From contig JAMWFC010000117.1 in NCBI GenBank assembly GCA_027475525.1, forward strand, positions 1,474,183 through 1,538,182: a DNA stretch of 64,000 bases, read 5' to 3'. Origin of the DNA: Macrolepiota albuminosa (Eukaryota > Basidiomycota > Agaricomycetes > Agaricales > Agaricaceae). The position numbers and the translations under genes are program-made. The notes under the pieces are model-generated. The model was not told the origin of the DNA, did not search any database, and worked only from the letters and a program-made list of their open reading frames with translations. Positions 1 to 61,507 of this stretch are shown in pieces; position 1 is the first letter of the stretch, and each line of letters opens with the position of its first letter.

Positions 1-1470
1 CCTCCCGTAAAAGTCGTACAAGAGCCCCATCCGCTAAGAAAAGACAGCAGAAACTTGACCTACGATGCCGTTTCCCGATCCGCCAAAGCAAAGGCAGAAG
101 ACAGCCGCTTGTTAATCGTTGAACAATGGCTACAAGACCTTAAGCGACCCGCAGGCCTTACCGACGAACAATACGCAACCTTTATCCGCTATGCTACCCA
201 TTTCTTCTTTACCGACAACCGACTTTGGCGACGAAACCAAAATGGCGCTCACAAGCTGATCATCAAGCCAGAAAGTCACTTACGAGTCTTGCACGCCATG
301 CATGACGAGCTAGGACATAGAGGTCTGTACGCTACCCGAGCTTCTCTTTTAGAACAATTCTGGTGGCCACACGCTAGTGCTGACATCGCCTGGTACATCA
401 GGACTTGCCACCTCTGCCAAATTCAACAAACGCGCCAAGTGCTCATCCCGCCAACCGTTGCAACGCCAGCTCCTCTCTTCAGCAAAATCTACGTCGATAC
501 CATGCATATGCCCAAATCTGGTCGCTACAAGTACATTATTCAAGGTCGTTGCTCGCTAATCCACTGGCCTGAGTTTCGAATGCTTCAGAGAGAAAATATA
601 GAGGCGGTCGCCAAGTGGCTATTCGAGGACGTCATTTGCCGTTGGGGAGCACTAAGAGAAATCGTCACGGATAACGGTGCGCCCATCATCAAAGCGCTAA
701 CTTACCTCGTCAAGAAATACAACATTCACCACATTCGAGTATCTGGCTACAACAAACGCGCCAATGGCCTGGTAGAGAGACCACACTTTGACGTTCGGCA
801 AGCGCTCTTCAAGGCAGTCGATGGCGACGAGTCTCGTTGGAGTGAAGCGACTTACTCAGTATTTTGGTCAGAAAGAGTTACCATTCGTAAGCGCATGGGT
901 TGTTCTCCCTATTACGCGGCTACTGGCACCCATCCGTTACTCCCTGCCGACATTATAGAAGCAACCTACCTTCAACCAGCACCCAACAGCATCTTAGCGA
1001 CTACCGATCTTATTGCCAGACGAGCCATTGATCTCCAACGAAGGAAAGAAGATTTAGAGCGACTTCCCGAGGTAGTCTTTAGCGCCCGTCGCCAAGCAGC
1101 ATTACGATTCAAAACTGAGCATAGCGCTACCATCAAAGATTACAACTTCCCGAGAGGAGCGCTAGTGCTTATGCGCAACTCCAAAATCGAGACCTCATAT
1201 AACAAGAAAATGCGTCCGCGCTATTTGGGACCTTTGGTAGTTATATCTCGTAACCGTGGAGGCGCTTACGTGCTCTGTGAATTAGATGGTTCAGTATTGC
1301 ATCGACCTGTTGCCGCTTTTCGCCTATTGCCATATCTCGCCAGAGAACACATTGACTTGCCGCTTGAAGCGCTAGATATCGACACCGCCAAGCTGAGAGA
1401 ACTTGAAGAAACCGAATTATTGGACGATGATGACTTGCCGACTTTAGTTGAAGAAGAAGAAAATGATTAG
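1..1470 (+). CDS. Integrase portion of Ty3/gypsy pol (element A), 5' end outside window
   Basis: The reading frame is open from base 1, so this is the C-terminal part of a longer polyprotein. It contains an N-terminal HHCC zinc-binding region (HDELGHRG, then CHLCQ near residue 138), followed by the catalytic core with D in VDTMHMP, D in VTDNGAP and E in GLVERPHF. The C-terminal part (MRPRYLGPLVV, GGAYVLCELDG) resembles the beta-barrel DNA-binding end of gypsy integrases; no chromodomain is visible. The tail is acidic and ends LVEEEEND. The ORF has no internal stop or frameshift, which makes this the best-preserved copy of the A/B integrase here; the B copy at 26017-28503 has several stops. 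Its job would be cDNA insertion in the nucleus. Confidence 0.93.
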   Translation, partial: PPVKVVQEPHPLRKDSRNLTYDAVSRSAKAKAEDSRLLIVEQWLQDLKRPAGLTDEQYATFIRYATHFFFTDNRLWRRNQNGAHKLIIKPESHLRVLHAMHDELGHRGLYATRASLLEQFWWPHASADIAWYIRTCHLCQIQQTRQVLIPPTVATPAPLFSKIYVDTMHMPKSGRYKYIIQGRCSLIHWPEFRMLQRENIEAVAKWLFEDVICRWGALREIVTDNGAPIIKALTYLVKKYNIHHIRVSGYNKRANGLVERPHFDVRQALFKAVDGDESRWSEATYSVFWSERVTIRKRMGCSPYYAATGTHPLLPADIIEATYLQPAPNSILATTDLIARRAIDLQRRKEDLERLPEVVFSARRQAALRFKTEHSATIKDYNFPRGALVLMRNSKIETSYNKKMRPRYLGPLVVISRNRGGAYVLCELDGSVLHRPVAAFRLLPYLAREHIDLPLEALDIDTAKLRELEETELLDDDDLPTLVEEEEND

Positions 1471-1892: not shown

Positions 1893-4310
1893 TCACTCAC
1901 TATCATCCTCCATCGGCAACGAGTCGTCGGAGACCGGCAAAGAAGAGTCGCACAGAGGTAGGAGGTCGCCCGGCAAGATGTTGTTGGCGGTCTGCCAATC
2001 CATGGTGGCTTGGCAATCGTCCTGGTAGTCGCGGAGAACGCGAAGGCTACGACCCAGATTGGAGTAGCGCAACCTTAGTGCCATTAGCTGACCCCAGACA
2101 TGTTCCCGCTCCCGACCCATTGCTGCCTCCATTGTTGCCGCCCTCCTCGAGAACCTCTCCAGCATCTCCCATGGGTTAAGTGCCACCACCGGGTACACGA
2201 GGTCTTGTCCCAGCCAGTTGAAGGCGTCGCCTGTGACCATTGGCTGCGGCTGGGGGGTCCATGAGGGATTGACCCTGGCGACCACGGGGTGCCTAGGCTC
2301 CAGGCCGGCAACGTCCTCAGGGTCTGAAACCTCCCAAGGGGCAACGCTACTGTAGGGAGGCAGCCAGCACCACTCAGGCTCCTCCCTGGCAACTTCTGCC
2401 GCTCCCTCCCCTTCTTCTGCCTCCCTTGCCGACGTCTCCTCCTCACCACCGTCCCGTTGCGTCGCCAAGGTTTCCTCTTCACCTTTGGCATCTTCATCTC
2501 CTCCCGCTACCGTTCCCTCTGCCTTCTCCTCATCCCCCATCTCGACGTCGACGGGGGCTTCTTCCCGCTCCTCTGGCGGCGTTGAGTCGCCAATCACTGC
2601 CCACTCTCCTACCTCCTGCTCCTCGCCAAGAGATCTTGTCGCCAAGTAAATAGGCGACAAGAGACCGCTGGGGCCAGCCTCTGTGTCACGAGGCGAGAGG
2701 CGACTAGCCGCCAACACCTTCTTCAGGTCTTCCATCTCGGTGTCTTTTGGGGCTGGCAAGGGGGAAGGCGACGACGACACCACATGAGGGCGCTTTGCTT
2801 TGCCCTTCCCTTTGCTGGGGGAAGGGGCTTGTCATTTTTCTGGGACCAAAGTCCCTTGGCGCTCTCCAGCGCCTCGTTTGCCGACTGTTTCTGATCCATC
2901 TCCTTGGCGCATTGGTAACGCCAAGGAGGCTCGTCCAACAGCTGCCATATCACCGGCAGCGACCTTCTTCTTCTGCTCCTCCACGAACTCCCTGGCCCTC
3001 CTAACCAATACCACACGGGAAAACGTCTTCTCGACGAGGGCATCTGGCGCGCCGCTACGCTCGCAACTCTTGGCCCCGTCGATAGTGCAGGCACGCTTGA
3101 GGGCGCCACAACGATAACATGGCTGGGCCCCGGTCAGGAACCAGCAGCCTTCTGGGTCGTTATCCATCCAGCACTTATCACACTAGCGCTATAAGTCAGC
3201 GAGAGCTCAAAAAGACAGAAGAGTTACTTACTGCTCCATGCGCCTCCTTAAAAGCCTGCCGAGTCGCCAAGGAAACGGTCTTTTTCCCCTTCATTTCCTC
3301 CATTACAACTCCAGCCTCTTGTCCTTCATCAAGGACGGCTTCCTCCCGACGTGGCAAAAGCAAACCTCGCAGTTCCTTGTCGTCAAAGGAACATTGCGTT
3401 GGCGCCTACAGAAACTTAGTAATTCCAGTCCAAAGAGAAAGTACCACTCACCGCGTATTGAGGAGCCGCCTTGCGACTCTGTGAATGTCGTTAGCGACCG
3501 TCGGCAACGGCAAGCAAAATCAGCACTTACCTTACGTTTGGAAGCACCTGCCGGCTTCCTCAGCGAGCCCGACTTGCTAGCTGGCAGCACTGGGCTCAAA
3601 GTGCTGCCGGCGCGACCTATCTTGCCGGATCCCTCTGCTACCGCTTGCCTCTCAACGGCAGGCGCCTTCCCTGCAGCAACTCCCTTCATCTCCTCCGCCA
3701 ACTCTCTGACCCGCTCCCGCTCCTCCAGAGCCCTGGTGATTTCCTGGGCATCTTGGGAAATCTCTTCCTGCCGCGTCGCCAGCTCCTCGGCCACTTGCAT
3801 GCGCGCCAGGGGCGCCAACACCTCTTGCTTGCTACGGGGGGATAGTTCAGTCCATAGCTAGAGAAGGAAAGGTCAGAAGCTACTTACTTGGTTGCCGATG
3901 CACTGATGGTCATCGGCAACGCGCCAGAAAGAATATCCTCCAGCTCATCGTCGATGGTGGGGACAGGGGGAGGCACCTAGGGAGCAATCAGCTAAGCGAC
4001 ACGGCAGGCGACAGAAGCAACTTACAAAACGGGAGAAGGGCGCTAACCACTCAGCGCCACGATTGTCAATATACCGCACGCGGCACCACTCCCGCACCTC
4101 GATTTCGCGATCCCACCCAACGCCAAGAACTCTCACCTCATACCATTTCTCCAGCAGCTTCATAACGCCAACCACTAAGTTTGGGGATGCCTCGGCGCCA
4201 ACACCCTCAATATGGCAAATAAATCGGTTAGCCTTGGCGATGTAGGCGTAAGCGGCTTCTTGAGCGGCTTGAGATGGGACGGGGGGCGGAGTTGGAATAT
4301 GGAAGGACAT
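1893..4310 (-). CDS. Antisense spliced accessory gene of element A with Zn2Cys6-like cluster
   Basis: I infer five exons joined by GT-AG introns: 4310-4026, 3976-3888, 3831-3531, 3405-3232 and 3182-1893, 713 codons with the stop. The phases agree at every junction. Exon 1 is a conserved helical domain also present in B and I. Exon 3 is a charged, probably coiled-coil segment. Exon 5 opens with six cysteines spaced C-x2-C-x8-C-x8-C-x2-C-x6-C, close to but looser than the fungal Zn2Cys6 binuclear cluster. It continues with a basic KGKGKAKR stretch, an acidic region and a conserved C-terminal block (WTP, WLG, YPV, GDLLPL). One in-frame TGA (2834-2832) breaks exon 5, probably from CGA. The gene is tail to tail with pol. 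Family unknown to me; a nuclear DNA-binding role is inference from the cluster and basic patch. Confidence 0.72.
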
Positions 4311-4446
4311 TTTTTGTTTTAATTGAGCGCCAGAAAAAGATGGGGAGAAGAAACGAAGTCCACACTCATGTGCCAGGACTATAAACCAAATCTCAAGAAC
4401 GCACGGACCACTTGTCACAAAAGCGGTAACGGTAGCCTTATTTGGT

Positions 4447-4481
4447 GACTGAGGACAGTCAATTTTTCAGTTGGGGGGAGA
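4447..4481 (+). promoter_or_regulatory. Hairpin and polypurine tract before the 3' LTR of element A
   Basis: GACTG-AGGA-CAGTC forms a small inverted repeat at 4447-4460, followed by a T-run and the purine-rich TTGGGGGGAGA that abuts the LTR start at 4482. In LTR elements this tract primes plus-strand DNA. The same hairpin-spacer-PPT block precedes the LTRs of B (44794-44830) and, in reverse, I (61362-61398). Confidence 0.8.
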
Positions 4482-19116: not shown

Positions 19117-20227
19117 TGATAGGCTTCTACTCGGACTAAGCGCATCAAGGGACATTATAGGCCAACTGACACTTGACGTACTGAGGACTCTAGTGACCAG
19201 TTGGGAATATAGAGCAGCCCTAGCTCTGGCAACCTACTACAGGATTTAGACATTTATCCTAACCACTAGCTACCAAGCCTTCAGCACACTCCATTTACCT
19301 ATCCCAAGGACAAAGGAGGCTCATAACGTATAGCGCTAACACAATGGCGGGAGAGGACTCTAACTAAACCCCGATCACTTCCAGAAGGAGCCAGCAGCAG
19401 GCGCTGCCATTTGACGAGGCACTTCAATCAGAAGTCTAAAAGGATCAATGATGGCGGCACTGGATATACCTAAATCCGACATCTGGACCTGTCAGGAACT
19501 GATACAATGTGTAGCGCTGACATTAGCGCTCACGGCGTCTGTCGAGGATTTTCTGACCATACCCTGGAACAGCCTGGCCAATCGGAGTTATAATAAAAGT
19601 GAGCAAACTCATGCAATTCTAAGCCAATATAGAGTCGCCGCTGGTCGCCGTGGGTCATAACGCCATTGGTCGCCATTAGAGGAAACCACGAGGAGAGGCA
19701 CTAGGAGGTAGCACCGCAGATGGACTGGTATCTTGGCAAACACGGTAGCGCATAGTATATAAAATAGCTACTTTACATGTATATAACAACGAATTGTAAC
19801 TCCTGGAGCAGACAAGTTACACTTAGCGTTCAAATTGCACTAGCTTCCTTTGACTTCGTTGCTGCGTCGGGCGCTAGCCTTGTCTATCTCGTCTTTGTCG
19901 TTTACGGTGCCACTTATGGGCACAATACGCTGCGCTACTCGTCTTTTCTTTAATATCTTTGCTTAAACTACGACGCTTACCGTCTGCCAGGTAGCGGCAC
20001 AATACGCTGCGCTACTCGTCTTTTCTTTAATATCTTTGCTTAAACTACGACGCTTACCGTCTGCCAGGTAGCTCCCGAAGTGCTATAATCTAGCGCATCA
20101 TTTTATTACCTCCACTTGAGCACACCAGGACCCTGTCAGGACTTCTCACAACTACGCATGCCAGGCGCTGGAGACGGCGTTGTACTGCATATACGTCCAG
20201 TGCACCCAACCACAGTTGGCATCATCA
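19117..20227 (+). repeat. 5' LTR of element B
   Basis: Runs from TGATAGGCTTC to GGCATCATCA. A TATA-like TATATAAAA at 19756-19764 is a likely Pol II start signal for element RNA. A 77-nt duplication (19919/19996) inflates it; true length is near 1.03 kb, matching the copies at 44831, 53348 and 60319. Confidence 0.88.
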
Positions 20228-25225: not shown

Positions 25226-26016
25226 TGTCAGGTTCTGCTGAGTCGGGGGCTTTCTGGGAAAGCAACGCCCTTACGATGCGGACTTGACCTACGAATACTC
25301 GGGTGTCTGGAACTCCGGGGCTAGGACTCCGGGGTTCAAGACGGGGACAGAGGTAATCCCGGGAGAGGGGACTAGAGTCCGGGGGTTTTGGGTTGGAGGT
25401 AACTGAGAGCTAGAGGGGGTCGAGTCGTGAACCGGAGGTTCTAAGACGAGACCAAGTTAGTAAATCAAGAGTCGCGAAGTGCGTACCAAAACTTAGAGCA
25501 CGCGAATACTTAGGTGTGCCAGTCGAAGCATACCAATCAAGGCGTACCAGTCAAGCAAAAGGGCACGCAATAACCAAAGTAATATCAAGACTAGCGAATA
25601 CAGCGGAGAACTACACTATAAGTACTACGGATCATGTCTCGGGATTCCGGGATGTCTGGGATGAGTTCCAGGGATCATTGAGTAGCGGTCAGGGACTGTA
25701 TACTGGGATCGTGCGTGTGAGGACGCGCGATCAATTGGCGCGGAGGGAGTCGTGATGTGTGGGGCATGATGCGTGATGGTCGGATGCGAGCCGCGTGATC
25801 CAATCGTTGATGGCAGTTGATCCTGGGGTCCATGATGCAGGGGTCCTGGGGGGCTGGCTGATGGCGATCATTGACGGCTGATGGCGGTCATTGATGCGTG
25901 TGATGGCGGCGTCGGCAGTTGTGGGGGCGGGGTGCGCTGTGGGATTGACAGAAGAGGTTCCCAGGCGGGGCTCCGGGGGTGTCCCGGGGAGGTTCCGGGG
26001 GGGAGGGGTCGTGACA
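25226..26016 (-). mobile_element. Solo LTR of the C family inside B pol
   Basis: Plus-strand ends are TGTCAGGTTC and TCGTGACA. AGGAA flanks it on both sides (25221-25225, 26017-26021). It aligns along its length with the LTRs of element C and includes the 13-nt TAATATCAAGACT (25580-25592). No internal element sequence remains, so it is a recombination product of a full element. Confidence 0.93.
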
Positions 26017-28503
26017 AGGAAGTGGCTACAGGATTTGCGCCGACCATCAAACCTTACGGATACAGAATACGCCACCTTTATTCGATATGCAACAACTTTC
26101 TTTATGGTTGAGAATTGGCTTTGGCGACGAAATAGGGCTGGCGCTCACAAATTGGTAATCAAACCAGACAGCCAAATCAGGATTCTGCACGCTGATGACG
26201 CCCAAATCGAGCTGGGCACTGCGTGGACTATCACTAGTGCAGCTACTTAGCCGATATAGCTTTGGGCGCGCTAAGTGTGTGAGAGAGTCCCGGACAGGTC
26301 CCAGAGAACACACGGTAGGCAAGAGGTTGGTGGCAAGGAAAGTGGGTAATTGGAGGCACTTGCGTATGGCTCCAAAATGTGGCTACAGGGCGCTAAAAGT
26401 CGCTAAGGGGGAGCGCTAAGAGCGTGGGAAAGTTGCTAAGAAAGGCGCTAAGAGGTGCAGGAAAGGGTCGCTAAGAGGCGCTAAGTGTTAGCACCTAGAA
26501 CGTGATAATAAAAGGATGAGATTGCTTAGCGGATCTAAGCATGAAAGCCAAGCCGTAGTTGCAAGGCGCTAGGGAGAGAGAGATATAGAAAACTAGAGCA
26601 GAGTCCCCTTGCTTGACACGGTCAACAAGAGGTAGTCTGTTGCGTATAGAGAGAGAGAGATATAGAAAACTAGAGCAGAGTCCCCTTGCTTGACACGGTC
26701 AACAAGAGGTAGTCTGTTGCGTATAGAAACCAAAATGTTGGGATACGATCCCTACTGCCAAATTGATTCCTTTTACTACTAACAAAAAGTAGGTATTTAT
26801 AGTAAAGAAAGTTAGCCGACGCTAAGAGGTTAAGCGCCGCTAGAGGGTGGTAAACTGATGAAAATGTAAGTAAATGCGGTGAATTGAATTGTATAGTAAA
26901 AAGGTCCATAATGATGCTGTCATGGAAATACTTCATCATTTCCCCTTGTAAGCGCTGCCACTGGCTAAGAGCATTATGCTGGATTGACTGATGCCAAGTG
27001 TCTGTGTAAATGTATAGCCTTGGAGTGCAAGTGGCAAGGTGCGGCGAGGTGTCAATAGTGGTGCAAAGAATAAATGGTGCCATAAAAAGTGGTCTGAGAG
27101 TAATTGAAGTCTGTAGCTGCGAGTTATTAGTGTAAAAATATGAGAAAAATAGCGCTGGAAGCGCTAGAGCGTGGCGCTTCTGGTGGTACTAGTGGGCCAA
27201 TATGAGGTGCAGGTATTGGTGCTATCTGTAGCCAGCCATGATGCAGGCTCATCAACACTATGCATGATGACTTGGGACATAGAGGACTCTATGCGACATG
27301 GGCGAATCTATTGGAACGTTTTTGGTGGCCTCAAGTTAGCGCCAATATTGCATGATATATTCGCACTTGTCATCTATGCCAAATCCAGCAGACGCACCAA
27401 GTTCTTATTCCCCCAACCATAGCGACTCCAGCACCATTGTTCGGAAAGATATATATCGACACTATGCACATGCCAAAGTCGGGGCGCTACAAGTACATTA
27501 TCCAAGGAAGGTGTTCCTTGGTACATTGGCTGGAGTTCCGTATGCTCCAGCAGGAAAATACTGATGCTATAGCTAAGTGGCTCTTTGAAGATGTTATTTG
27601 CAGGTGGGGAGCACTTCACAAGATTGTTACAGACAACGGAGTGCCAATAGTTAAGGCACTTACCTACCTCGCTAAGAAATACAACATATAGCATATTCAA
27701 GTCTCAGGATACAACAAACACGCTAACGGTATAGTGGAAAGGCCGCATTTTGACATACGACAGGCACTGTTCAAAGCGGTAGACGGCGACAAAAGTCGCT
27801 GGAGTAAAGCGACTTATTCAGTATTTTGGTCTGAACGAGTTACCGTACGGAAGAGGATGGGCTGTTCTCCTTACTACGTGGTGACTGGCACCCATCCCCT
27901 GCTCCTAGCAGATGTTGTGGAAGTGACGTACTTACAACCCCCACCTAACTCAATCCTGTCCTCTACCGATCTAATTGCTAGGCGCGCTATTGACTTACAA
28001 CGACGCATGGAGGATCTGGAGCACCTACACGAGGTGGTATTTCAAGCTAGACGACAGGCCGCATTACGATTTGAAAGCAAGCATAGCGCTACCATCTGAG
28101 ACTACAACTTTACAGCTGGCGCCTTAGTACTAATGCGCAACTCAAAAATCAAAGTCACCCATAACAAAAAGATGCGACCCCGATACCTAGGACCCCTCAT
28201 AGTAGTTTCCCACACAACTCAAAAATCAAAGTCACCCATAACAAAAAGATGCGACCCCGATACCTAGGACCCCTCATAGTAGTTTCCCACAATAGGGGAG
28301 GTGCCTACGTACTCTGCGAGTTGGACGGCTCAGTTTTGCATCGACCAGTAGCGGTGTTCCGACTCATTCCTTACTTAGTGTGTGAACATATTCCACTACC
28401 TTTGCCGGCACTGGACATTGACACTGCCAAACTTTGAGAGCTGGAAGAGACTGAGTTGGTGGACGATGATGAGAGCACTCTGGATGAAGACGAGGAGCAA
28501 TAA
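26017..28503 (+). pseudogene. Integrase of element B, split by a solo LTR
   Basis: Homologous along its length to the intact A integrase: KWLQDLRRP at 26022, then a break at 26193-27254 by an LTR, then HHCC (CHLCQIQQ) and DDE residues (IDTMHMP, VTDNGVP, GIVERPHF). Stops occur at YNI*HIQ (27690), ATI*DYN (28099) and AKL*ELE (28438); the last two sit where A has AAA and AGA (both probably CGA before decay). A 77-nt duplication at 28138/28215 adds an artificial shift. The acidic tail is shared with A. Confidence 0.88.
26193..27254 (-). mobile_element. Solo LTR (TGATGACGCC...TCATCA type) inside B integrase
   Basis: The integrase frame stops at its left edge and resumes at its right edge, which defines the insertion. 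Ends are TGATGACGCC and GGCTCATCA. The first 120 bases resemble the A-type LTR end (GGTCCCAGAGAAC), but the rest differs, so I treat it as a separate subfamily. It holds a cluster of CGCTAAG motifs (about 26265-26480) and one 77-nt duplication (26574/26651). Flanking pentamers do not match perfectly. Confidence 0.75.
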
Positions 28504-28696
28504 ACTTATACGAAACGCAAGGTGCTAACTGTTAGCGCCCCTTTGGATCAGACTTAGGCAACCTGACAACCAGAAAAGAATAAATAAACAAGCGGTACTA
28601 GTACACAAGGAACAGACGATCAGACTACGACTACAACTAATTGAACTACCCTAAAGATGCAGACCGTCGACGTGGACCTTTCACTTGATCTTTAGG

Positions 28697-30069
28697 TCAC
28701 CTGCGGGTGGAAGGAGCGCCTGGAGGTGGCGCATTAGCAGATGGAATGGGAGAAATGGGAACGCTAGGAGGAGGCATGGGAGGAGTGCCTGGAGCACCCA
28801 GAGAAGTGGCAGGGAGGTTGGGAGATGAGTACCACCCGCCCCCATCCGGGCAGGACTCAAACAATGGGTAAGGAAAGGCCATGCATTCTAATATGGCCTG
28901 ACGCGCATCAAGATTGACGAGAGGGGGAAGGGGGAGCCAGGAGAGACTCTTAGAGACGGCATGGAGTTAACAACCTCAGGTCAGAAAAGGAAAAGAACTA
29001 ATCAAGGTTCCCGTTTCATGGAGTAGGCTGGCCAGACTCAGAGCGGTACCTGTAACCGGCTCCTGCACAACGCATGAGTATTACTCACGACCCGCGCTAA
29101 GGGGAGGTGTACGGTGACTATGGATGGGTCAACATCGACCATCCATTCCTCAGAAGCGGTGAGAAGAATCCGGTACCTGCGAACCAAGGTCATTGTGTTG
29201 CTGTTCTTGTGCAGAAAGCCGCTGGTAGGCATTAGCGCAAGGAACTGCTCCAATTGGTCTAGGATAGCGGGATGGTAAAGACGTTTGGGCTCATCAAGGA
29301 GAAGGGGAACTACTGGCATGATGTGATACTGACCAGGTTAACAGCGCCAAAACCCATAAAGTACCTCAAGCTACTTGCAGGGTCACAGATACTAGGGAAT
29401 TCTTACATGCGCAAAACAATCACAAGGGGGGGGCAACAACAGCAATGCAGTTCATATAACTACGACAAAAGAAATCAAGTATCTAAAATCTGTCAGCCCA
29501 GTGGCGCCACGGAAAAGAAGGAGCTGACTTACATAAATGACATGGAAGATGGGTGAGCATCAAGGACAAGGCAAAAGAAGAGGCCTGGGAGGCCTCCAGC
29601 CTTCAGCAGGACCACGAAAAAGCCAGCCACCAGTAGACAAGCGGAGCGCCTAGCGAGGCAACACGTTAGAAGGAAGAAAACGAGGTAATAAGGCAACAAA
29701 CCAGGTAGTGACTCTCCTCCAGCAGCAACTCAAGACGCTCTTTCATTTCCTTGGTTGCAATTTGCTTTATTTGGCGACTATCAGAAGGGAAGGAGGGCAA
29801 AAAAGGCAATAGCGCACCTGAAAAATCCGACTCCAGTTCTTCTCCATACTAAAACGGGTCAACGGCAGATCATCGTTCCAAATCTCACAGGCCACATAAA
29901 GTAGCTGGCAGCGACAACCTAACTCAACGACTCCGTCGGTCAGTCTGGGCACGCCAACCACTGGGTAGTGGTGGAAGAACAAGGTAGCACGTTCCAGGAA
30001 AGTGGGGGGATCAATCATGACATGAGCACAATTACAGCGGGGGGTCCACACAATGCCGGTTGGGCTTTC
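28697..30069 (-). pseudogene. Second antisense gene of element B, unknown, probably spliced
   Basis: ATG at 30069 (MESPTGIVW) opens an exon of about 84 codons containing CNCAHVMIDPP and FLERATLFFHHYP, up to a possible GT donor after SRIFQV. Further down, in frame pieces, are an exon-like block near 29038-29319 (LYHPAILDQLEQFLAL, VRRYRILLTASEEW) and a proline-rich terminal piece 28882-28697. Exon borders between 29800 and 29320 are unresolved. Element A has no counterpart between its integrase and the larger antisense gene. It ends tail to tail with B's integrase. No family recognised. Confidence 0.5.
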
Positions 30070-30674
30070 CATAGTGAAGACTGATGAGATGCTGTCAAGG
30101 CATGGGCAATTTATAGGACTCGGACAGTGTTTCAACTAATGACAGTGTGGGAGAGCATTTCTCAAGGGGCTTGGACCCTGATGCAGACACGAATCAATAG
30201 GATGCGCTTGACTCATTTTTAGGTCGCACAAAGAGGAAGTTAACCTTCGAGATCTAGCGCTTATAGCCACCATCACCGAATAACCACAAGCAATCAGTGG
30301 CACTCTATTTCTTATACATTAAAACTTCTTGCATGAATCAACTTATTTTTCTACAGACAATACCTATTTCTTCCTAGGCTGGCGCGATATTGGCTATTGG
30401 GTCGCGCTGGTAATAGGGGTTTTTTTTCTACAGACAATACCTATTTCTTCCTAGGCTGGCGCGATATTGGCTATTGGGTCGCGCTGGTAATAGGGGTTTT
30501 CTACGCTATGATGATTTACTGAGCGTTTTCCCTTTTTCTTACTTTGTAATTGATTATCTACAAACTGACAATTTCGGAACAAGAGGGGGGAGCGTTTATT
30601 TTTAGTAGGGCTATCACAAACTACGTATCAAAAGTTACAAAGTCCACAAAGTTCAAAGCACTATGGGCCAGCAA
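30070..30674. other. Gap between the two antisense genes of element B
   Basis: No supported ORF. It holds a 77-nt duplication (30346/30423) and a segment (about 30500-30540) shared with the gap after A's integrase. It may contain the promoter of the smaller antisense gene and the 3' end of the larger one. Confidence 0.5.
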
Positions 30675-31185
30675 CTATGCATCAGACTCGGAAGGAGCGG
30701 GATCATCCAAAGGGAGCAAATCCCCGTCCTGAATGGCATTACTCGCTTGCCACTTGAGCGCATCAGTGATGTCGTCATGAAGCTCAAGCAGGAGGAGCTC
30801 ACGGCATGCTAAAGTGGAGACACGAGGTCGTAGAATGGCGAGTTTACTACCAATGACATTGGTGGCATCCTCGACATGGCAAAGTTGTTGGTGGAGATTG
30901 GCGGCAGGACGAAGGGGAGTGACGGGATAAGAGAACTCATCCCCAAGCCAAGGGTAGGCATTGCCGGAAATGCATATGGCGGGGGGAGGAGTCCAGAAGG
31001 GATCAAACTTAGCAGAGGTTAGAGAAAATACGAACTAATGAAGGAATGCAGACTTACTCGAACGGTTACGGGAGCACGGGGGGTCTATTCATGGTGCTCA
31101 TCGCCTGGGGACATGGCCCTAGTGGAGGAAAGGTGGATGCCATAAGAGGGCAAGTACCTCCAGCGGCGACGGCGCTCGCCCTGAG

Positions 31186-31933
31186 TGTCAGGTTCCGCTG
31201 AATCGGGGGCTTTCCGGGAAAGCGACGCCCTTACGATGCGGACTTGATCTACGGATACCCGGGTGTCTGGAACTCCGGGGCTAGGACTCCGGGGTTCAAG
31301 ACGAGGACAGGGGTAATCCCGGGAGAGGGGACTAGAGTCCGGGAGTTGTGGGTTGGGGGTGGCTGAGAGTTAGAGGGGGTCGAGTCGTGAACCGGGGGTT
31401 CTAAGACGAGACCAAGTTAGTAACTTAAGAGTCGCGAAGTGCGTACCAAACTTATAGCACGCAAATACTAAGGCGTGCCAGTCGAAGCGTACCCAACAAG
31501 GCGTACCAGTCAAGCAGAGGGCACGCAATATCCAAAGTAACAGTATGCAAAGTATGTAATATCAAGACTACCGAATACAACAGGGAGCTACACTATAAGT
31601 ACTACGGGGCCGGATCTCGGGGTTCCGGGATGTCTGGGATGGGTTCCGGGGGCTATTGAGTAGCGGCAGGGGCTGTATACCGGGATCGCGCGTGTGGGGC
31701 GCGCGATCAATTGGCGCGGATGGAGCCGTGATGCGTGATGCGTGATGGCCGGCACGAGTCGCGTGATCTGATCGTTGATCGGGGCTGGTGATGGCTGATG
31801 GCGGTCCTTGATGCGCGTGATGGCGGTGTCGGCGGTCGTGATGGCGGGGCGTGTCCTGTGGGGTCGGAGGGAGGGTCCCGGAGGGTGTTCCGGGGGTGTC
31901 CCGGGGTGGGCCCGGAGGGGAGGGGTCGTGACA
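31186..31933 (-). repeat. 3' LTR of element C
   Basis: In element sense it reads TGTCACGACC to GGAACCTGACA. The 13-nt AGTCTTGATATTA (minus strand of 31557-31569) is the likely start of R and is complementary to the site after the 5' LTR. Solo copies: 25226-26016 and 48346-49082. Confidence 0.95.
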
Positions 31934-31947
31934 TCACCCCCCCCTCA
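31934..31947 (-). promoter_or_regulatory. Polypurine tract of element C
   Basis: On the minus strand a G-rich run, GAGGGGGGGGTGA, abuts the LTR start TGTCA. Element E has almost the same junction (GAGGGGGGGTGA-TGTCA at 52147-52163), which links the two as related lineages. Confidence 0.8.
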
Positions 31948-32062
31948 GCGCCGAGACCCTCCGAGGCGCGCGTAGCCGGTGGCTCGGACCGGGGGCCAAC
32001 CGTGGGATCCGGCACCTGACCTGCCACGTATCGAAAAAAAATTTTTACCGTCAAGTTCAACC

Positions 32063-33923
32063 ATGTCGCGTACGCCAACGCATTCCCCGACGCCCCCGCA
32101 AACCAACGAGGTTGCGCCCCTGATGGCCTGGGAGGCCCGGGATGCGCGGTACCGGGCCCGCCTGGACCGGGAGCGCGTGGCGGCGCTTGTACAACAGCGT
32201 GAGTGCTTTCGCGAGGGTCCGCTTACCGCGGCTGACGTTTTCCCTTCAGAACAAAGATCTTCCCCCGCTCCGGAGGCGGGTCCCAGCCGACTTCCGGAGT
32301 CTGTTCCCGAGGCTGGCCCCAGCATTCTCCCGAAGTCCCGCCCCAGTCGTCCCGCGCCTACCTTTGCGCGGATGACTGTCCGCCCACCCCGCCCTCAACC
32401 CCCTCCTCGTCCTAGGCTTCCTGCCCCCCGCTTTCGTCGCTCCGGGATGGCGATAGGGGCCGTCTCCGAAGTCCCGGAGGGTCAACGCGTTGCGTGGGAG
32501 GGCGTGACGCAAGAGTTGTTTGAGGGGGCCCTTGAGAGGCTCCGGGGCTTACCTGCCCACGCCTGGTGCGTGAGCAACGGACCGGTGAGTGGGCTCTCAC
32601 CTCCTGGTCTTTGTGCTGATCTCGGTGCAGTGCCTGCACTGCGCCCGGCGCGTGGTCCCTTGCCTGTTCGAGGTTCCGGGCCCCTCGTCCCGCCGCGATA
32701 CGTCCGTTTGCGAGGCCTGCCGCCAGAACCATGAGCGGTGCTCCGTGTCGGCGCTGTGGCGGGCGCGGTGTGTCTCCCGGGAGCAGGGGTGGCCGCTGGC
32801 TGGGGTTACTCGGAGGATGGGAGTGGAGGACCGGGACTGGGTGGTGGAGCCGGTGGGGGAGGGGGGTGGCCGCTGGCTGGGGTTACTCGGAGGATGGGAG
32901 TGGAGGACCGGGACTGGGTGGTGGAGCCGGTGGGGGAGGGGGTGGAGCTGGTGGGGGAGGGGTCCGCGGTGCCCGCTGAGGCGTCCAGTGGGGGGTCGGG
33001 GGGTCGAGGGGTCGTTCGGGTGGGGGGCCGGGGGCGGCCCGTGGTCCTGATCACCCGTCGGGTGACCCGGGCCGGGGCCAGCAGTCACGAGGGTCGCGGG
33101 GGGCGCCCCAACAAGGGGAAGAGGCGGGCGTCGCCTAGTCCCTCCCCGGGGCCTTCTAAGAGGGCGCGTCTGCCTGCAGCAACCCCGCCCCCGACTTCCC
33201 CAGCGCGCCTCTCCCCGGCGACGTTCTCTCCCCTGTCCGGGCGACCGCTGGACGTTGAAGTGAGGGCTCTGCAGGAGCGCCTCGAGCAGGCCGACCGGGA
33301 GCGGGGGGAGCGCGAGGAGGGGGCGAGGGAGGAGGCGGCACTCCGGAGGAGGCTGGAGGAGGACCGCGAGATGGCCCTCCGGGAGCTGGAGGAGGCGAGG
33401 GTGGCCCGAGGGGGAGCTGAGGCCCAGCTGGACGCCATGAGGGCCAGGCTGGGGCAGGGGGTTGGGCTCCCGGAGCGAGGTCCCTCGAGCCCGGGGTTGG
33501 TTGAGGCCTTGCGCCGGGACGTGGTCATCGGGCGCATGGCCTCCTTGAGTGAGTGTCCCCCCCTTTCGTGCCTAGATCGTACTAATATTTCCAGGCTGGG
33601 CTCGGGAGCACCGTCTGCTCCTCGACGGGGCCGCCACGGCGCTTGCGTCTCTCCAAGAGGGGCTACGGTCGGAGGTGGGGAGCCCCAGGGTGGAGCGGGG
33701 TCTAGATTTGCTGGGGAGGCTGGTGGGCGCGCACCGCCGGAGGAACGTCCCGGCCCCGGGATCGTGGTTCGAGCGCATTTTGGACGAGGGCGAGCAGCTC
33801 CCGTCTTGGGAGCAGCTGGCCGAGGAGGTGTTGCGAGAGCACGGTCCAGAGGGGGTGGGGGAGGATTTCCGGGGTTGGCCGAGGGGAGGGGGGGGTGAGG
33901 GTGACTCGGGGCCCCAGGTCTAG
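32063..33923 (+). CDS. Antisense spliced accessory gene of element C with Zn2Cys6-like cluster, intact
   Basis: Three exons, 32063-32584, 32631-33548 and 33595-33923, with GT-AG introns of 46 nt. Collapsing one 77-nt duplication (32786/32863) gives a single frame of 563 residues without stops. Exon 1 is proline- and arginine-rich and ends in a short helical block. Exon 2 begins exactly at CLHC and contains C-x2-C-x6-C-x15-C-x2-C-x6-C, a near-canonical fungal Zn2Cys6 layout with a longer loop. A basic NKGKRRASP / SKRARL patch, likely nuclear, follows. Then comes a long Glu/Arg coiled coil (about 33240-33470). Exon 3 is helical and acidic. The gene is tail to tail with pol (255 bp apart) and starts 129 bp from the LTR. 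Sequence similarity to the A/B/I gene is weak outside the cluster; shared position, strand and intron suggest common origin. Confidence 0.85.
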
Positions 33924-34178
33924 GGGTCCCCGTTTTCTTGCCGTTTGCCGGTTTCCTGGTCTGTAACTATAATGTACCTTCTAGAAAATGTATATATTCG
34001 GCCGTCGTACTCGAAATGTAAGTAAAGTGGTAGGAAAGAACGAGAAAGTGTACCTTGCCCAGAATCCGGGGCGTTACTGTGAAGAAAGTACTAAAGAGAG
34101 TAAGATCTAGAGAGGGAAAGCAGAAAATATACATGGGAGTTGAATCCCTACTGAGCCCAGAGGCGGGGGTTACGCCCA

Positions 34179-37100
34179 CTACTGCCGTCTGTGAGTCCTG
34201 CGCCCGGGGAGGTCGTTTCCCGGGTGCCGTTGTTGAAAGTCCCGGAGTTTGTCGAGGGCGCCTTCGAGGTTTCTGCGTGGTTCCCAGGTGTCGTCTTCCG
34301 GGCCATATCCCTTCCACCGTATGAGGAAGTGGGGTCGTCCACGAATGTTCCGGGAGTCGAGGATGTCCTCAACTTCGTAGTGGTACTCGTCCTCGACCTC
34401 GACTGGGGGAGGGGGCTCGGGGCGCCGTTCGGGGAAAGGATCCGGGGGGTGTCGTTCCAGGAGGCGGACGTGGAATACCGGGTGCAGACCTTTTAGTCCC
34501 AGGAGGAGCTCGATCTTGTAGGCGTGAGATGAGACCTTCTTCAGTATTTTGAACGGGCCGAGACGCTTGTGATCGAGTTTTGGGGAGGGCCGGCGGGTGC
34601 GGAGGTGTCGCCGATCTAGCCATACCTTTGTCCCGGGGGCCCAGTCGGGGGTGTCTTCCCGTTTCCGGTCGGCGTGTTTCACGTAGGCCCGGTTCGCGAT
34701 GTCGATCTCTTCCCGGAGAAACTCGTGAAGGGATTGGAGATCCCGGGCGACCTCGTGGGCGGCGTGCGACGGGATGTCCCGGAGCGAGAGCGTCAGTCGA
34801 GGGTGGTATCCCTTGTTGGCAAAGAAGGGTGATACCCCGGTGGCAGAGTGTGGCGTGTTGTTGTAGGTGAACTCGGCCAGGGGGAGCTCGGCGCGCCAGT
34901 CGTCCTGCAGGTAGTTGACGTACAGCCGGAGGTACTGCTCGAGGGACTGGTTGACCCTTTCGGTTTGGCCGTCGGTTTCGGGGTGGTAGGCGGTAGAGAG
35001 GTTAGTCTTTACTTCAAGTGCCTTACACAGGGAAGTCCAAAACTTGGACACGAAGAGAGGGCCACGGTCGGAGACGATGTCGTCCGGGAGCCCATGTTTG
35101 GCAAAGACGTGCTCGAGGAACAGCTGGGCGAAATCCGGGGCGGTATCCGTGGTGTGGCAGGGTAGGAAGATGCCCTGTTTGGTCAGCCTGCACACAACGA
35201 CGAGAATAGCATCGAACCCTTCAGATTCCGGGAGCTCGACGATGTGGTCTAGAGATATGGAGGACCAGGGGCGTCGCCCGACCGGCAGGGGTTTCAGGAG
35301 TCCGTACGGTCGGTGTCGGGGGACCTTGGCCCGGAGGCAGGGCTCGCACGATCGAATGTAACGGGTCACGTCCTTCTTCAACCCTGGCCAAAAGTAAGTC
35401 CGGGAGATGAGCTGGAGGGTCTTACGTATTCCAGGATGTCCCCGGAGCTTGTGGTCGTGGTGTTGGCGGAGGACGTCGTAGCGAAGTCGGGCGTGATCCG
35501 GGACGTAGATGCGGCCGTCCCGGAGGAGGAGTTTCTCGTCGGGGGACAAGGAGAAGGCGGGGTCCCGGTCGGTTCCGTCGGAAGGGTTTCGGGGGTCGTG
35601 ATCGGTGAAGTACTTGTCTCGGGGAGCGCAGCGGATCTGGTTCAGGGTTCCTTTGTCGTTTAAGATCAGTACGGCATTCAGATGTTCTACTTGTCTCGGG
35701 GAGCGCAGCGGATCTGGTTCAGGGTTCCTTTGTCGTTTAAGATCAGTACGGCATTCAGATGTTCGGAGGGATCACCACGCGATGATTGAACGCATTGCGT
35801 TCCGCCTCGAACGACTTCTTGGGATAGACGTCCGGACGACGGGTGAGGGCATCGGGTTTGGCTCCGAGTCGTCCCGGGCGGTACTGGATCGTGAAGTCGT
35901 ATTCCGAGAGGACCTCGGACCATCGGGCCTGCCGTCGACTAAGCTGCTTGGTTGTGGTGAAGTACTGCAGGTTGTTGTGATCCGAGTAGACCTGGATCCG
36001 GTGCCGGGCTCCCTCGAGGTAGGCTCGCCATTGCTTGAAGGCTTCGACGATGGCGAGGAGCTCCTTGTCGTAGATGTCGTAGTTGAGCTCGGCGTCGATC
36101 ATGGACCGGGTGTAGAAGGCAACGGGCCGGGGTTCCCCTCCGTCAGGTTCCATCTGCGAGAGGATCCCGGCGATGGCGTAGTCGGAGGCGTCGCATTCCA
36201 GGATAATCGGGAGGGTCGGGTCGTAGTGCCGGAGTACGGGGGCGGTCGTGAAAGCCTCCTTGAGCAGGTTAAAGACACTCTGGCACTTACTGTCCCAGTT
36301 CCAGGCGACATCCTTGCGCGTGAGCCGGTTGAGGGGTTTTGTGATACCGGAGTAGTTATCTATGAACCTCTGGTAAAAGTTAGCGAAACCCAAGAAAGAC
36401 TGTACTTCCTTGACGTTCCGGGGCTGTGGCCAGTTGACGATGGCCTCGACCTTGTGGGGGTCCATGCGAACGCCATTTGGGGATACTATGACGCCAAGAT
36501 ACTCAACCTCTTCACGATGGCCTCGACCTTGTGGGGGTCCATGCGAACGCCATTTGGGGATACTATGACGCCAAGATACTCAACCTCTTCCGTATGAAAT
36601 GAACACTTCTCGGGCTTGGCGTGGAGGTTGTGCTCCCGGAGGCGCTCGAGGACTTGCCGGACATGCTTCTGGTGATCCTCCGGCGAGTCGGAATAAATGA
36701 GGATGTCGTCCAGGTAGACGATCACGAAGACGTCGCTCATGTTGTGGAGGATGTCGTTCATGAAGTATTGGAACGTGGCGGGGGAGTTAGTCATTCCGAA
36801 AGGCATCACAAGGTACTCAAACAGACCATACCGCGTTCGGAACGCGGTTTTCCACTCGTGTCCTGGGGCGATGCGGACGTTGTTGTAACCGGAGCGGAGG
36901 TCGATCTTCGTATAAACCTTGGCACTGCGGAGTCGATCGACCAGATCGCCAATGAGCGGGAGCGGGTAGCGGTTCTTCTTGGTGATCTTATTGAGTCCCC
37001 GGTAGTCGACACAGAGTCGGAGCGAGCCGTCCTTCTTCTTGGCGAATAGAACCGGGGCTCCGGCGGCGGAGGCAGAGGGTCGGATGAATCCCTTACTGAG

Positions 37101-39026
37101 CATTTCGTCGAGGTAGTCCTTGAGGGCCCGGAGTTCGACCTCTGACATGTTGTAGACCTTGCCGAAAGGGGGGGTGGCTCCTTCCTCGAGGTCGATGGTG
37201 TGATCATAGGGGCGACCTCCGACATGTTGTAGACCTTGCCGAAAGGGGGGGTGGCTCCTTCCTCGAGGTCGATGGTGTGATCATAGGGGCAATGAGGGGG
37301 GATCTCCTTGGCGTCTCCTTCGGAGAATACGTCAGCGAACTCGTGATACTCCGGGGGAACTACTTCTCGGAGGATTTGCTCCTCAGTTTTCTGTTCCGGG
37401 GGAATAGCGTCCCCTCGTAGGTGTTCTTCCGGGAGAGAAGGCGAGGTGTGCAGCTGAAACGTGGGAGTCCCATCCCTCATGAGGCGGACGAAGGGGGCGG
37501 CCCCAATGATCCTAATGTCGAGTGCGCTCGGGTCGATCGGTGTTGCGGAATCATCGGCCGGAGCGGGTGTGACGCGTGTCTGAGACCGGCAGGGGTAGTT
37601 CGGCCCCTTGTACTTGTTCCGAGGAATGTTTGGGGGTCGATCGGGGGCCTTGCGGTCTCGGATGGGCGGGGGTGGTGCATGCGTGGGGGGCGCGGCAGTC
37701 GTCCCGGGGGTGTCGGGCGTCGGGTCGCGCGGTCTCGGATGGGCGGGGGTGGTGCATGCGTGGGGGGCGCGGCAGTCGTCCCGGGGGTGTCGGGCGTCGG
37801 GTTGCCTCCTAGAGCCCGGAGGTGCACGGCGGTCGAGGGGTGGTCTTCGGGTCCCGGGAAGGTCATGGTGAGCGTCTTCCAGTCGATGTCGGGGTTCGTG
37901 TCGCGCAGCCAGGGTAGTCCCAGCACCATCGGGGTCGATTCGTGAAGTCGCGTGACCAGGAAGTCGGAAGTGAACTCGAAGTTGTTGTCCAGGGTCACGC
38001 GTCCCAAGTGAGACCTTTGGATGGGGCCGGAGGAGGAGGGGGTGCCGTCGAGGCGTTGCAGGCGGAGGGGCTGGTCGAGGGAGTCGTGGGGGAGGTCGAG
38101 GGCGTCGCTGATGAAGGGGTGCCGTCGAGGCGTTGCAGGCGGAGGGGCTGGTCGAGGGAGTCGTGGGGGAGGTCGAGGGCGTCGCTGATGAAGACCCCGG
38201 TGGCTCCGCTGTCGATAAGGGCCGATATCAGTCCCGGGGTGCCGTCCAGCCTGGCATTGATGACGAAGGATCGGGACGAGCGGGACTGGAGTCCGGGGGG
38301 TGGTGGGGGCTCGTCTGGGGGGCCCTTCGGGGTTGGGTCTGAGGAGTGGGGGATGTCGAAGGGGAGTTGCTGGTCGTCGGGGGTCGGGTCCCGGGTCAGG
38401 CGAAGGGTGAGGTGTCGCCAATCGATGCGGGGGTTGGTGTCCCGGAGCCACGGGAGCCCTAAGACCAGGGGTGCGGAAGGGTGGAGTTTTGTTATCAACA
38501 TCCGGAGGTTGTGAGTCTGTCCGTTGGCGAAGGTAACGGGCATACGCACGAAGTGGGTAATGTCCCCCGCCGTAGAGGCGTCTCCGTCTGAGTCTGTCCG
38601 TTGGCGAAGGTAACGGGCATACGCACGAAGTGGGTAATGTCCCCCGCCGTAGAGGCGTCTCCGTCAAAGAGGCAGAGTCGTACCGGGACTGGGAGTCGCT
38701 GGGCGGGTTCCGGGGCGAGGGTAGACCATGCTTCGTCGACGAAGTTGTCGGTGGCGCCACTGTCGACGAGGGTGTTGAGGGGAGTTCCGGAGGGGGTGAG
38801 GCGGGTTTTGAGGAGGAGGGAGTGCGAAGAGTGGGAGGGTAGATAAGCCGTGTGAGGGGAGTTCCGGAGGGGGTGAGGCGGGTTTTGAGGAGGAGGGAGT
38901 GCGAAGAGTGGGAGGGTAGATAAGCCGTGAAGGTGTCCTGTATGAGTGTCGTAGAGCGAAGATGTGAGACCAGGGCGGAGAAGACGTCGGGGTCGATTCC
39001 GCGATTTAGGGCGTCTTCCGGGTCTA
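34179..39026 (-). CDS. Pol of element C: two proteases, RT, RNase H, integrase, chromodomain
   Basis: Follows the gag stop in the -1 frame. Order: protease 1 ([11 protein letters not shown], near 38775-38745; [10 protein letters not shown]), protease 2 ([11 protein letters not shown], near 38220-38185; [10 protein letters not shown]), RT ([24 protein letters not shown] near 36710), RNase H ([35 protein letters not shown]), and integrase HHCC ([19 protein letters not shown]). The DDE core has [17 protein letters not shown] and GQTERVNQS. The chromodomain near 34390-34240 has [10 protein letters not shown] and [13 protein letters not shown], with aromatic residues in place. All catalytic residues are present. 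Seven 77-nt duplications (35611, 36437, 37136, 37652, 38039, 38512, 38776) split it; without them it is about 1,440 codons. A duplicated protease is unusual for this order. Confidence 0.92.
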
Positions 39027-42000: not shown

Positions 42001-42060
42001 GCGTCCGTAAGGGTCGGTCTGGTACCCCGTGGGGTAGTAGGTGTGAGTATACGTAGCCAT
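39024..42060 (-). CDS. Gag of element C
   Basis: ATG at 42060 (MATYTHTYYPTGYQ) lies 34 nt inside the 5' LTR. A Pro/Tyr-rich N-terminus is followed by a helical block (MGRRRLEEYERQRDEILRSL), a capsid-like region (VAFAASYLQGIAFDHYTAL, FEKEAYETGWNYSALRYAL) and a glycine/proline linker. A CCHC knuckle near 39170-39240 is recognisable as CGEKDHFISEC; its first cysteine lies in another frame because of the duplication at 39076/39153. A TAG at 39285-39283 replaces a tryptophan seen in D. The natural stop, GCG ATT TAG at 39026-39024, is shared with D. Duplications at 39457, 40502 and 41558 also interrupt. About 905 codons after clean-up. Confidence 0.88.
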
Positions 42061-42080
42061 CAAGAACGGTGTAAGGAAAG

Positions 42081-42093
42081 AGTCTTGATATTA
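42081..42093 (-). promoter_or_regulatory. Self-priming site of element C
   Basis: Directly after the 5' LTR the element reads TAATATCAAGACT. This is the exact reverse complement of AGTCTTGATATTA inside the LTR (42465-42477 on the other strand), where R is expected to start. Tf1 of fission yeast primes reverse transcription by folding its own RNA 5' end onto such a site. No TGG-type tRNA site is present. Confidence 0.72.
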
Positions 42094-42841
42094 TGTCAGG
42101 TTCCGCTGAATCGGGGGCTTTCCGGGAAAGCGACGCCCTTACGATGCGGACTTGATCTACGGATACCCGGGTGTCTGGAACTCCGGGGCTAGGACTCCGG
42201 GGTTCAAGACGAGGACAGGGGTAATCCCGGGAGAGGGGACTAGAGTCCGGGAGTTGTGGGTTGGGGGTGGCTGAGAGTTAGAGGGGGTCGAGTCGTGAAC
42301 CGGGGGTTCTAAGACGAGACCAAGTTAGTAACTTAAGAGTCGCGAAGTGCGTACCAAACTTATAGCACGCGAATACTAAGGCATGCCAGTCGAAGCGTAC
42401 CCAACAAGGAGTACCAGTCAAGCAGAGGGCACGCAATATCCAAAGTAACAGTATGCAAAGTATGTAATATCAAGACTACCGAATACAACAGGGAGCTACA
42501 CTATAAGTACTACGGGGCCGGATCTTGGAGTTCCAGAATGTCTGGGATGGGTTCTGGGGGCTATTGAGTAGCGGCAGGGGCTGTATACCGGGATCGCGCG
42601 TGTGGGGCGCGCGATCAATTGGCGCGGATGGAGCCGTGATGCGTGATGCGTGATGGCCGGCACGAGTCGCGTGATCTGATCGTTGATCGGGGCTGGTGAT
42701 GGCTGATGGCGGTCCTTGATGCGCGTGATGGCGGTGTCGGCGGTCGTGATGGCGGGGCGTGTCCTGTGGGGTCGGAGGGAGGGTCCCGGAGGGTGTTCCG
42801 GGGGTGTCCCGGGGTGGGCCCGGAGGGGAGGGGTCGTGACA
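42094..42841 (-). repeat. 5' LTR of element C
   Basis: 748 bp, same length as the 3' copy. The differences I count are mostly G/A and C/T transitions clustered near 42520-42555. Drives element RNA toward lower coordinates. Confidence 0.95.
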
Positions 42842-44733: not shown

Positions 44734-44741
44734 CTTTTATA
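44734..44741 (-). promoter_or_regulatory. TATA box of the antisense gene in element B
   Basis: TATAAAAG on the minus strand lies about 50 nt upstream of the ATG at 44684. Copy I has the same box at 61451-61458 with the same spacing. The gene therefore appears to have its own Pol II promoter, separate from the LTR. Confidence 0.7.
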
Positions 44742-44793: not shown

Positions 44794-44830
44794 TTGACTG
44801 AGGACAGTCAATTTTTCAGTTGGGGGGAGA
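44794..44830 (+). promoter_or_regulatory. Hairpin and polypurine tract before the 3' LTR of element B
   Basis: TTGACTGAGGACAGTCAA is a perfect 7-bp inverted repeat with a 4-nt loop, followed by a T-run and TTGGGGGGAGA directly before the LTR. It lies between the antisense promoter and the 3' LTR. Confidence 0.85.
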
Positions 44831-61361: not shown

Positions 61362-61398
61362 TCTCCCCCCAACTGAAAAATTGACTGTCCTCAGTCAA
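61362..61398 (-). promoter_or_regulatory. Polypurine tract and hairpin of element I
   Basis: Reverse complement of the block in B: pyrimidine-rich TCTCCCCCCAA next to the LTR, an A-run, then TTGACTGTCCTCAGTCAA at 61381-61398 (7-bp stem). A TATAAAAG box for the antisense gene follows at 61451-61458. Confidence 0.82.
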
Positions 61399-61507
61399 AC
61401 GCCATCATTAATTTGACTGTGCTACGGTCCGTATAATGCCGCCGGCACCTTATAAAAGTTGTTTTCAGCACTTCACCTTCCTGTGTTTTCCTTCCCATCT
61501 TTCCAGC

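Follow-up and report, generated by a model that had tools for sequence, protein, structure and literature searches.

The 64,000-nt stretch of Macrolepiota albuminosa DNA analysed here (the window; contig C110, positions 1474183-1538182, in a genome assembly of 100.1 Mb in 129 contigs) was found to carry three long terminal repeat (LTR) retroelements, A, B and I, which are members of one family. Each carries, between the integrase and the 3' LTR and on the strand opposite to gag-pol, a multi-exon gene that is here designated gene 1. The order is LTR, polypurine tract (PPT), gene 1 antisense to gag-pol, and then the integrase, and the corresponding features in the window are as follows.

1..1470, + strand: C-terminal part of pol of A, with the integrase H2C2 domain (Pfam PF17921, E 1.2e-14), antisense to gene 1
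1893..4310, - strand: gene 1 of A, spliced model (exons 4310-4026, 3976-3888, 3831-3531, 3478-3452, 3405-3232, 3182-1893)
3087..3182, - strand: cysteine cluster of A at the start of exon 6, C-x2-C-x8-C-x8-C-x2-C-x6-C
4376..4385, - strand: TATA-like box TTTATAGTCC of gene 1 in A, from comparison of the A, I and B promoters
4447..4479, - strand: 33-nt block of A with the PPT and most of a dyad (4461-4446), between gene 1 and the 3' LTR
19117..20224, + strand: 5' LTR of B (BLASTN of both LTR stretches, in several pieces; ends read from the sequence)
26008..28503, + strand: integrase part of B pol, interrupted by insertion (TBLASTN with A pol: 26008-26193, 27245-28210, 28216-28431)
30675..44684, - strand: gene 1 of B, by BLASTN mapping of genome-copy exons (44684-44427, 44369-44313, about 44263-43925, about 43873-43838, 43781-43608, 43553-about 43123, 43067-42842 continued at 31185-31058, 31007-30675)
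44734..44741, - strand: box TATAAAAG of gene 1 in B
44796..44828, - strand: 33-nt PPT and dyad block of B (dyad 44795-44810)
44831 to about 46287, + strand: 3' LTR of B (BLASTN against the 5' LTR, several pieces; ends read from the sequence)
60319..61361, - strand: 3' LTR of I, an element on the minus strand (ends TGATG...CCTATCA read from the sequence; LTR/PPT junction 61355-61366)
61364..61396, + strand: 33-nt PPT and dyad block of I (dyad 61382-61397)
61451..61458, + strand: box TATAAAAG of gene 1 in I
61508..64000, + strand: gene 1 of I (exons 61508-61765, 61823-61879, 61931 onward, 63304-63339, 63396-63569, 63625 onward), continuing in L045 (last exon 670-1002)

The full arrangement lies within the window for B and for the 3' part of A. 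Element I leaves the window at its end, and its continuation in L045 holds the remaining gene 1 exons, gene 2a (part of a second antisense locus described below), the integrase (4843-3304) and the protease. The antisense multi-exon gene that the original prediction had placed at 4310-1893 (A), 44684-30675 (B) and from 61508 onward (I) was recovered in all three elements, each time beside a PPT and a 3' LTR, and the integrase predicted on the other strand was located inside the window for A and B and just beyond its end for I. The pol order is of the Ty3/gypsy type, with RT_RNaseH followed by Integrase_H2C2 (Pfam, L043); B has both LTRs, a PPT is present, and an aspartyl protease domain was found in B within the window (Pfam). 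A separate Pfam reverse transcriptase match was not obtained among the scanned frames of these elements.

Gene 1 of the I/B-type has eight exons, including one of 36 nt, and that of the A-type has six (285, 89, 301, 27, 174 and 1290 nt in window A). Exon lengths of 258, 57 and 162 nt had been claimed to be identical in B and I; this holds for 258 and 57 nt, and the exon given as 162 nt is actually 174 nt long. The cysteine spacing C-x2-C-x8-C-x8-C-x2-C-x6-C was as claimed, as were the boxes of B and I, TATAAAAG being found about 50 nt before the ATG at 44741-44734 and 61451-61458. None of the three gene 1 copies in the window is intact: in A the last exon is cut short by a premature stop, the next open frame being 2831-1893; in B there are premature stops as well as an 11.7-kb LTR element that sits within exon 7; and in I exon 3 is interrupted both by a stop and by an LTR insertion (about 62267-63242). 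The window alone cannot show a working gene.

Copies across the genome and selection on gene 1

Hundreds of candidate gene 1 places were found genome-wide, 813 with the cysteine exon of I as query and 782 with the exon of A, two first looks that may overlap. Among the best 150 scored with the I exon 142 were without a stop in the matched stretch, and among the best 150 scored with the A exon many lay in open frames of more than 400 aa, as against 116 aa in window A; these two lists of 150 had no overlap. The many near-identical copies, together with the high copy number, mark a recent success of the element family.

Twenty-nine copies, taken from the 30 best matches, were aligned, and three were re-read over 10 kb. 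All six introns of a first gene 1 model were GT-AG in 29 of 29 aligned copies. Eighteen of these were then modelled with eight exons, the remaining 11, each holding a 77-bp duplication of the kind described below, being left out. The eight-exon plan (L024) has exons of 258, 57, 342, 36, 174, 593, 346 and 333 nt and introns of 51-58 nt; all seven predicted introns were GT-AG in 17 of the 18 modelled copies, and exon phases were kept. Twelve of the 18, which are best-scoring matches and not a random sample, were open through all eight exons to a single terminal stop (709-713 aa), and the other six comprised two with frameshifts, one with an internal stop and three with 77-bp duplications in exons. 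For the A-type, L043 has an unbroken six-exon frame of 705 aa (285, 89, 298, 30, 174 and 1242 nt) on the same plan as window A. These frame claims rest on copies without 77-bp joins inside gene 1. The predicted persistence of introns in an antisense cargo gene fits these data, since the modelled copies keep the predicted introns.

The gene 1 reading frame is under strong purifying selection. The ratio of nonsynonymous to synonymous substitution rates (dN/dS) was 0.108 over 711 codons between L024 (I-type) and L041 (B-type) and 0.115 over 703 codons between window A and L043, with a pol yardstick of 0.043 over 387 codons; dS is near or above 1 (Jukes-Cantor-corrected), which makes the ratios rough, yet they are far from neutral. 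Exon by exon, the comparison of L024 with L041 gave 0.103 for exons 1-2, 0.297 for exons 3-4 (low-complexity), 0.087 for exon 5, 0.045 for the cysteine exon, 0.08 for exon 7 and 0.123 for exon 8. Eleven young copies gave 0.02-0.20 in pairs with at least 10 synonymous differences, and 0 to about 1.07 in pairs with fewer. A dN/dS near 1 among copies had been named beforehand as the result that would speak against the original prediction; the value obtained was about 0.11. The A and I gene 1 proteins are 40-51% alike, compared exon by exon. Gene 1 is almost certainly a real, selected protein gene.

Placement of the copies was assessed by intersecting listed coordinates, which took in 100 of 686 PPT places and the best 150 of 1,929 integrase candidates, so that the counts are lower bounds. 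On contigs C1-C53, among the matches listed, the exact 33-nt PPT block occurs within 2.5 kb upstream on the same strand in 25 of 29 I/B-type and 23 of 26 A-type cysteine exons, i.e. in 48 of 55 copies, and on the wrong strand in none of the 55; two of the four I/B-type exceptions have the dyad, which is shorter than the block, at the expected place. Downstream of at least 58 of the 150 A-type cysteine exons a listed integrase lies on the other strand, 1.7-2.1 kb away in 55 of these cases, and none was found among the matches listed in any of the three other arrangements. For I/B-type exons, the listed integrases within 8 kb downstream, which are led by A-type elements, were two on the opposite strand and one on the same strand; the link of this type to the integrase follows from L039, L040, L041 and element I itself. 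Seen from the integrase, the PPT block follows at a distance of 3.0-3.9 kb downstream in 25 of the 26 cases listed on C1-C53, which leaves space enough for gene 1; at least 58 of the best 150 integrases are paired with a listed A-type cysteine exon. The concern that homologues might occur mainly outside retroelements was examined among the listed copies of this genome, none of which had a listed PPT on the wrong strand or, for the A-type, a wrong arrangement to a listed integrase.

The gene 1 protein and the upstream block

TATAAAA starts 96 nt after the start of the LTR-terminal CCTATCA in 24 of 25 distinct fetched copies and 95 nt after it in the remaining one, that is, about 90 nt beyond the last LTR base and outside the 3' LTR (L039-L041, which repeat L018, L019 and L016, enter the count once; left out are five loci with only one of the two marks and L042, whose orientation was not set). 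This fixed distance, together with the GT-AG introns of the copies, is more than chance would give. The 33-nt block is identical across A, B and I and has 686 genome places at up to two mismatches. In the aligned A, I and B types the block CCTATCATCTCCCCCCAACTGAAAAATTGACTGTCCTCAGTCA, which holds the LTR end, the PPT and the dyad, is identical, the remaining promoter having diverged. The perfect dyad TGACTG-N4-CAGTCA stands beside the PPT in all three elements and has 767 genome places, versus 36 for a control pattern; it could be an operator or an RNA hairpin, and may act in reverse transcription, in antisense transcription or in both.

The gene 1 protein consists, in this order, of an N-terminal domain, a variable linker, exon 5, the six-cysteine cluster, a VLVRNAR stretch, a basic patch, an acidic stretch and a C-terminal part; the VLVRNAR stretch and the long C-terminal part look helical, as judged by eye. 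Six related proteins were found in a protein collection with the A product as query and 85 with a family profile at E 0.1, in a search that needs shared 5-residue words and scored 7,993 candidates, such that farther relatives may be missed. All relatives come from Termitomyces strains, all are 'hypothetical' and none has a precomputed Pfam domain; the host itself is accordingly likely to be related to Termitomyces. Of the 41 Termitomyces proteins in which the start of the motif is present, 36 keep the cluster spacing, and in five a cysteine or a piece of the cluster is missing. By a simple pattern, 12 of 25 proteins have a bipartite-like basic patch behind the cluster (all three element products, four of 22 Termitomyces proteins at the matching place and five of 22 only in the C-terminal part), and a simple count gave 14-15 acidic residues within 30 in three of 25. 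It is fairly probable that the gene 1 protein binds nucleic acid in the nucleus.

Zn2Cys6 clusters, to which the original prediction had assigned the cysteines, have the spacing C-x2-C-x6-C-x5-12-C-x2-C-x6-8-C. Gene 1 shares with them six cysteines in two CxxC-bearing halves, and its second half, C-x2-C-x3-K-x2-C, resembles the usual Zn2Cys6 first half; its first half is instead C-x2-C-x8-C, such that C-x2-C-x8-C-x8-C-x2-C-x6-C departs from the consensus. The assignment was abandoned, as the cluster gave no match to the Pfam model PF00172, and the 21 places found by a PF00172 scan of the genome include none closer than 38 kb to any of the 300 listed cysteine exons. Other named families gave weak matches (best E 0.026), which were spread over families with no relation to one another, occurred mostly in a single member and were taken as chance.

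Known antisense genes and candidate roles of gene 1

HBZ, the antisense gene of human T-cell leukaemia virus type 1 (HTLV-1), is spliced, and its product is a bZIP protein. Gene 1 encodes a protein of a different family, and its TATA box about 90 nt outside the LTR differs from the HTLV antisense promoter, which is inside the 3' LTR (PMC7264820). HBZ is described as a nuclear protein that is central to the viral life cycle (PMC11963269). In plant Ty3/gypsy elements, antisense additional open reading frames (ORFs) lie between pol and the 3' LTR, e.g. gene23 of maize Grande and those of rice RIRE2 and Silene Retand, the last with a TRP28 domain; some of the products are nuclear or predicted to bind DNA, an own upstream promoter has been reported for gene23, and the role of antisense retroelement proteins is presented as an open question (PMC7264820, PMC11963269). 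Gene 1 has the same place and strand, lying in A, B and I between the integrase and the 3' LTR on the opposite strand, as is characteristic of the class aORF-3R. It differs from the plant ORFs in its five to seven predicted introns and its six-cysteine cluster, and B/I-type elements add a second antisense locus; the word 'intron' does not occur in the main text of PMC7264820 or PMC11963269. The gene 1 protein has no match to TRP28 (PF04195), as it has none to any Pfam family.

Among fungi, Boty-like elements of Botrytis cinerea carry the antisense gene brtn (Zhao et al. 2011, as cited in PMC7264820 and PMC8365987). Like gene 1 it is an antisense gene in a fungal LTR retroelement; its host is an ascomycete. 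The antisense retroelement gene is a kind already known, and the earlier statement that no fungal element with such cargo had been described was too strong. A literature search on antisense genes in Gypsy retrotransposons of Basidiomycota found no paper. As far as literature listings tell, what is new is the richness of gene 1 in introns, its six-cysteine family, a further antisense locus in the element and the carrier, likely a basidiomycete one.

Gene 1 is a conserved antisense gene of six to eight predicted exons, for which position, strand, reading frame, intron positions in the modelled copies, purifying selection and high copy number are established. On balance, and partly by analogy with the nuclear or predicted DNA-binding products of plant antisense ORFs, its protein is likely to bind DNA within the nucleus and would regulate the element's own transcription or replication; the case for self-regulation as its main role is about evenly poised. 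Transcription by RNA polymerase II would begin at the TATA box that lies some 90 nt beyond the end of the 3' LTR, and the antisense transcript of integrated copies would be spliced at sites that the sense genomic RNA would be unable to use. In the latter the backward splice sites are present as complements and are not removed, so that the introns would persist through reverse transcription. The protein would dimerise via its helical-looking C-terminal part, the basic patch would bring it into the nucleus and the six-cysteine cluster would bind DNA, the dyad beside the PPT being a candidate binding site. Its mode of action would best be read as like that of HBZ or of the plant antisense ORFs.

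If this holds, a fungal LTR element, outside the retroviruses, has evolved its own spliced antisense regulator in parallel to HTLV and the plant elements, and shows a way for a retroelement to keep introns through RNA-based copying. It would offer a fungal system for testing the functions of antisense retroelement proteins, and a large group of unannotated Termitomyces proteins, likely counted as host genes, would be retroelement cargo. A further-reaching and rather improbable version is that of an antisense cassette of up to three protein genes (gene 1, with 2a and 2b in B/I) whose host-style introns would survive by being backward. Here gene 1 would found a new six-cysteine DNA-binding family that binds the PPT-side dyad and switches between antisense regulator expression and sense retrotransposition, and the cassette would be a natural counterpart of laboratory antisense-intron retrotransposition reporters.

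Several points weigh against self-regulation by a DNA-binding gene 1 protein. The protein has no Pfam, NCBIfam or PDB match, and the simple pattern did not find the basic patch in 13 of the 25 proteins, partial and decayed ones included. The dyad adjoins the PPT and could serve reverse transcription instead, and antisense transcription is expected to carry a cost in double-stranded RNA (dsRNA). The share of intact copies among those modelled is biased upward and is likely lower genome-wide. Joining artefacts of the assembly make single junctions untrustworthy, although the repetition of the arrangement across many copies argues against an assembly artefact.

Among other explanations, an accessory replication factor, which coats or carries the cDNA complex, imports it into the nucleus or steers integration to certain sites, appears possible though rather unlikely. 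The basic patch and cysteine cluster suit general nucleic-acid binding, the dyad abuts the PPT, where plus-strand DNA starts, and nuclear entry of the preintegration complex has been raised as a role of antisense ORFs (PMC7264820); yet the own TATA box and the predicted introns imply that the protein would be made in the nucleus from integrated copies, apart from gag-pol, which suits a regulator better. A protein that acts on the host, e.g. against silencing of the element, or on host genes, is less probable still. The recent success seen in the number and near-identity of the copies would agree with it, and sense and antisense RNA that are complementary over a long stretch would be a likely target of RNA silencing, such that a counter-measure would pay, but no likeness to a known suppressor family was found in Pfam.

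It is very improbable that the antisense transcript is itself the agent, through interference or through dsRNA that limits copy number, and that the protein is incidental. Non-coding antisense transcripts have been described from other retrotransposons (PMC7264820), but the dN/dS of about 0.11, and of 0.045 in the cysteine exon, reflects selection on amino acids and exon phases are kept; selection at the protein level disfavours a role of the RNA only. An ordinary or recently captured host gene that happens to lie beside retroelement copies is scarcely credible, even though the intron-rich build resembles that of a host gene: the candidate places number in the hundreds, those listed have a fixed place and strand in the element, and no separate host-type copy stood out among the best 150 candidates scored with a Termitomyces J132 query.

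Second antisense locus, nested insertion and assembly features

Further features of the window concern a second antisense locus of B- and I-type elements, 2a/2b, and an element nested in B.

28640..30072, - strand: 2a/2b locus of B, between the integrase and gene 1 (2a exon 1 30072-29818; 2b main exon 29328-29089; 2b last exon from 28948)
30107..30115, - strand: TATA box TATAAATTG of B gene 2a, some 35 nt upstream of the 2a ATG
31186..42841, - strand: gypsy-type element with a chromodomain, nested in exon 7 of gene 1 of B (Pfam Chromo and integrase matches in 34179-35771)

The second locus was also found in L045 (1587-2564) and in L040, L041 and L042 (about 6400-7880). Among the 150 of 151 2a exon matches that the count took in, a 2a exon follows downstream in the same orientation at no fewer than 96 of the 150 listed I/B-type cysteine exons, and in the opposite orientation at none. 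In the A-type copies read (window A and L043), pol and gene 1 are separated by only about 430 nt, and 2a/2b is absent. The locus seems to hold two related units, 2a and 2b, which are alike at E 2e-8 in an 8-sequence set. dN/dS was 0.161 for 2a exon 1 and 0.344 for the 2b last exon, dS being saturated in the 2b main exon. The middle exons are uncertain, since the best splice model of 2a runs into a stop and the first exon of 2b is not clear. Neither 2a nor 2b had a match in the protein collection at E 0.001, and a shared origin of the first exons of gene 1 and 2a/2b was not supported (best E 0.05).

The chromodomain element has LTRs that are 98.9% alike over 748 nt and a 5-nt target duplication, CTGAG; it is a later, rather young nested insertion and not part of gene 1.

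The window contains 29 exact two-copy tandem duplications of period 30-159 bp, and in every one of them the period is 77 bp (e.g. at 8406, 9480, 28138, 45063 and 62928), and many of the fetched genome copies show 77-bp duplications too, which points to joins of a k=77 short-read assembly and not to biology. Pairs of retroelement matches at constant offsets were noticed by eye (281,388 bp on C126, 104,673 bp on C114, 44,048 bp on C110 and 82,234 bp on C87); the assembly may thus contain duplications of large blocks, or haplotypes that were not resolved. Last, AT-rich stretches (TTATATTATATTTATTATAATATAATATTA) at 4831-5000 and 16548-16710 recur beside retroelement parts as repeated units.

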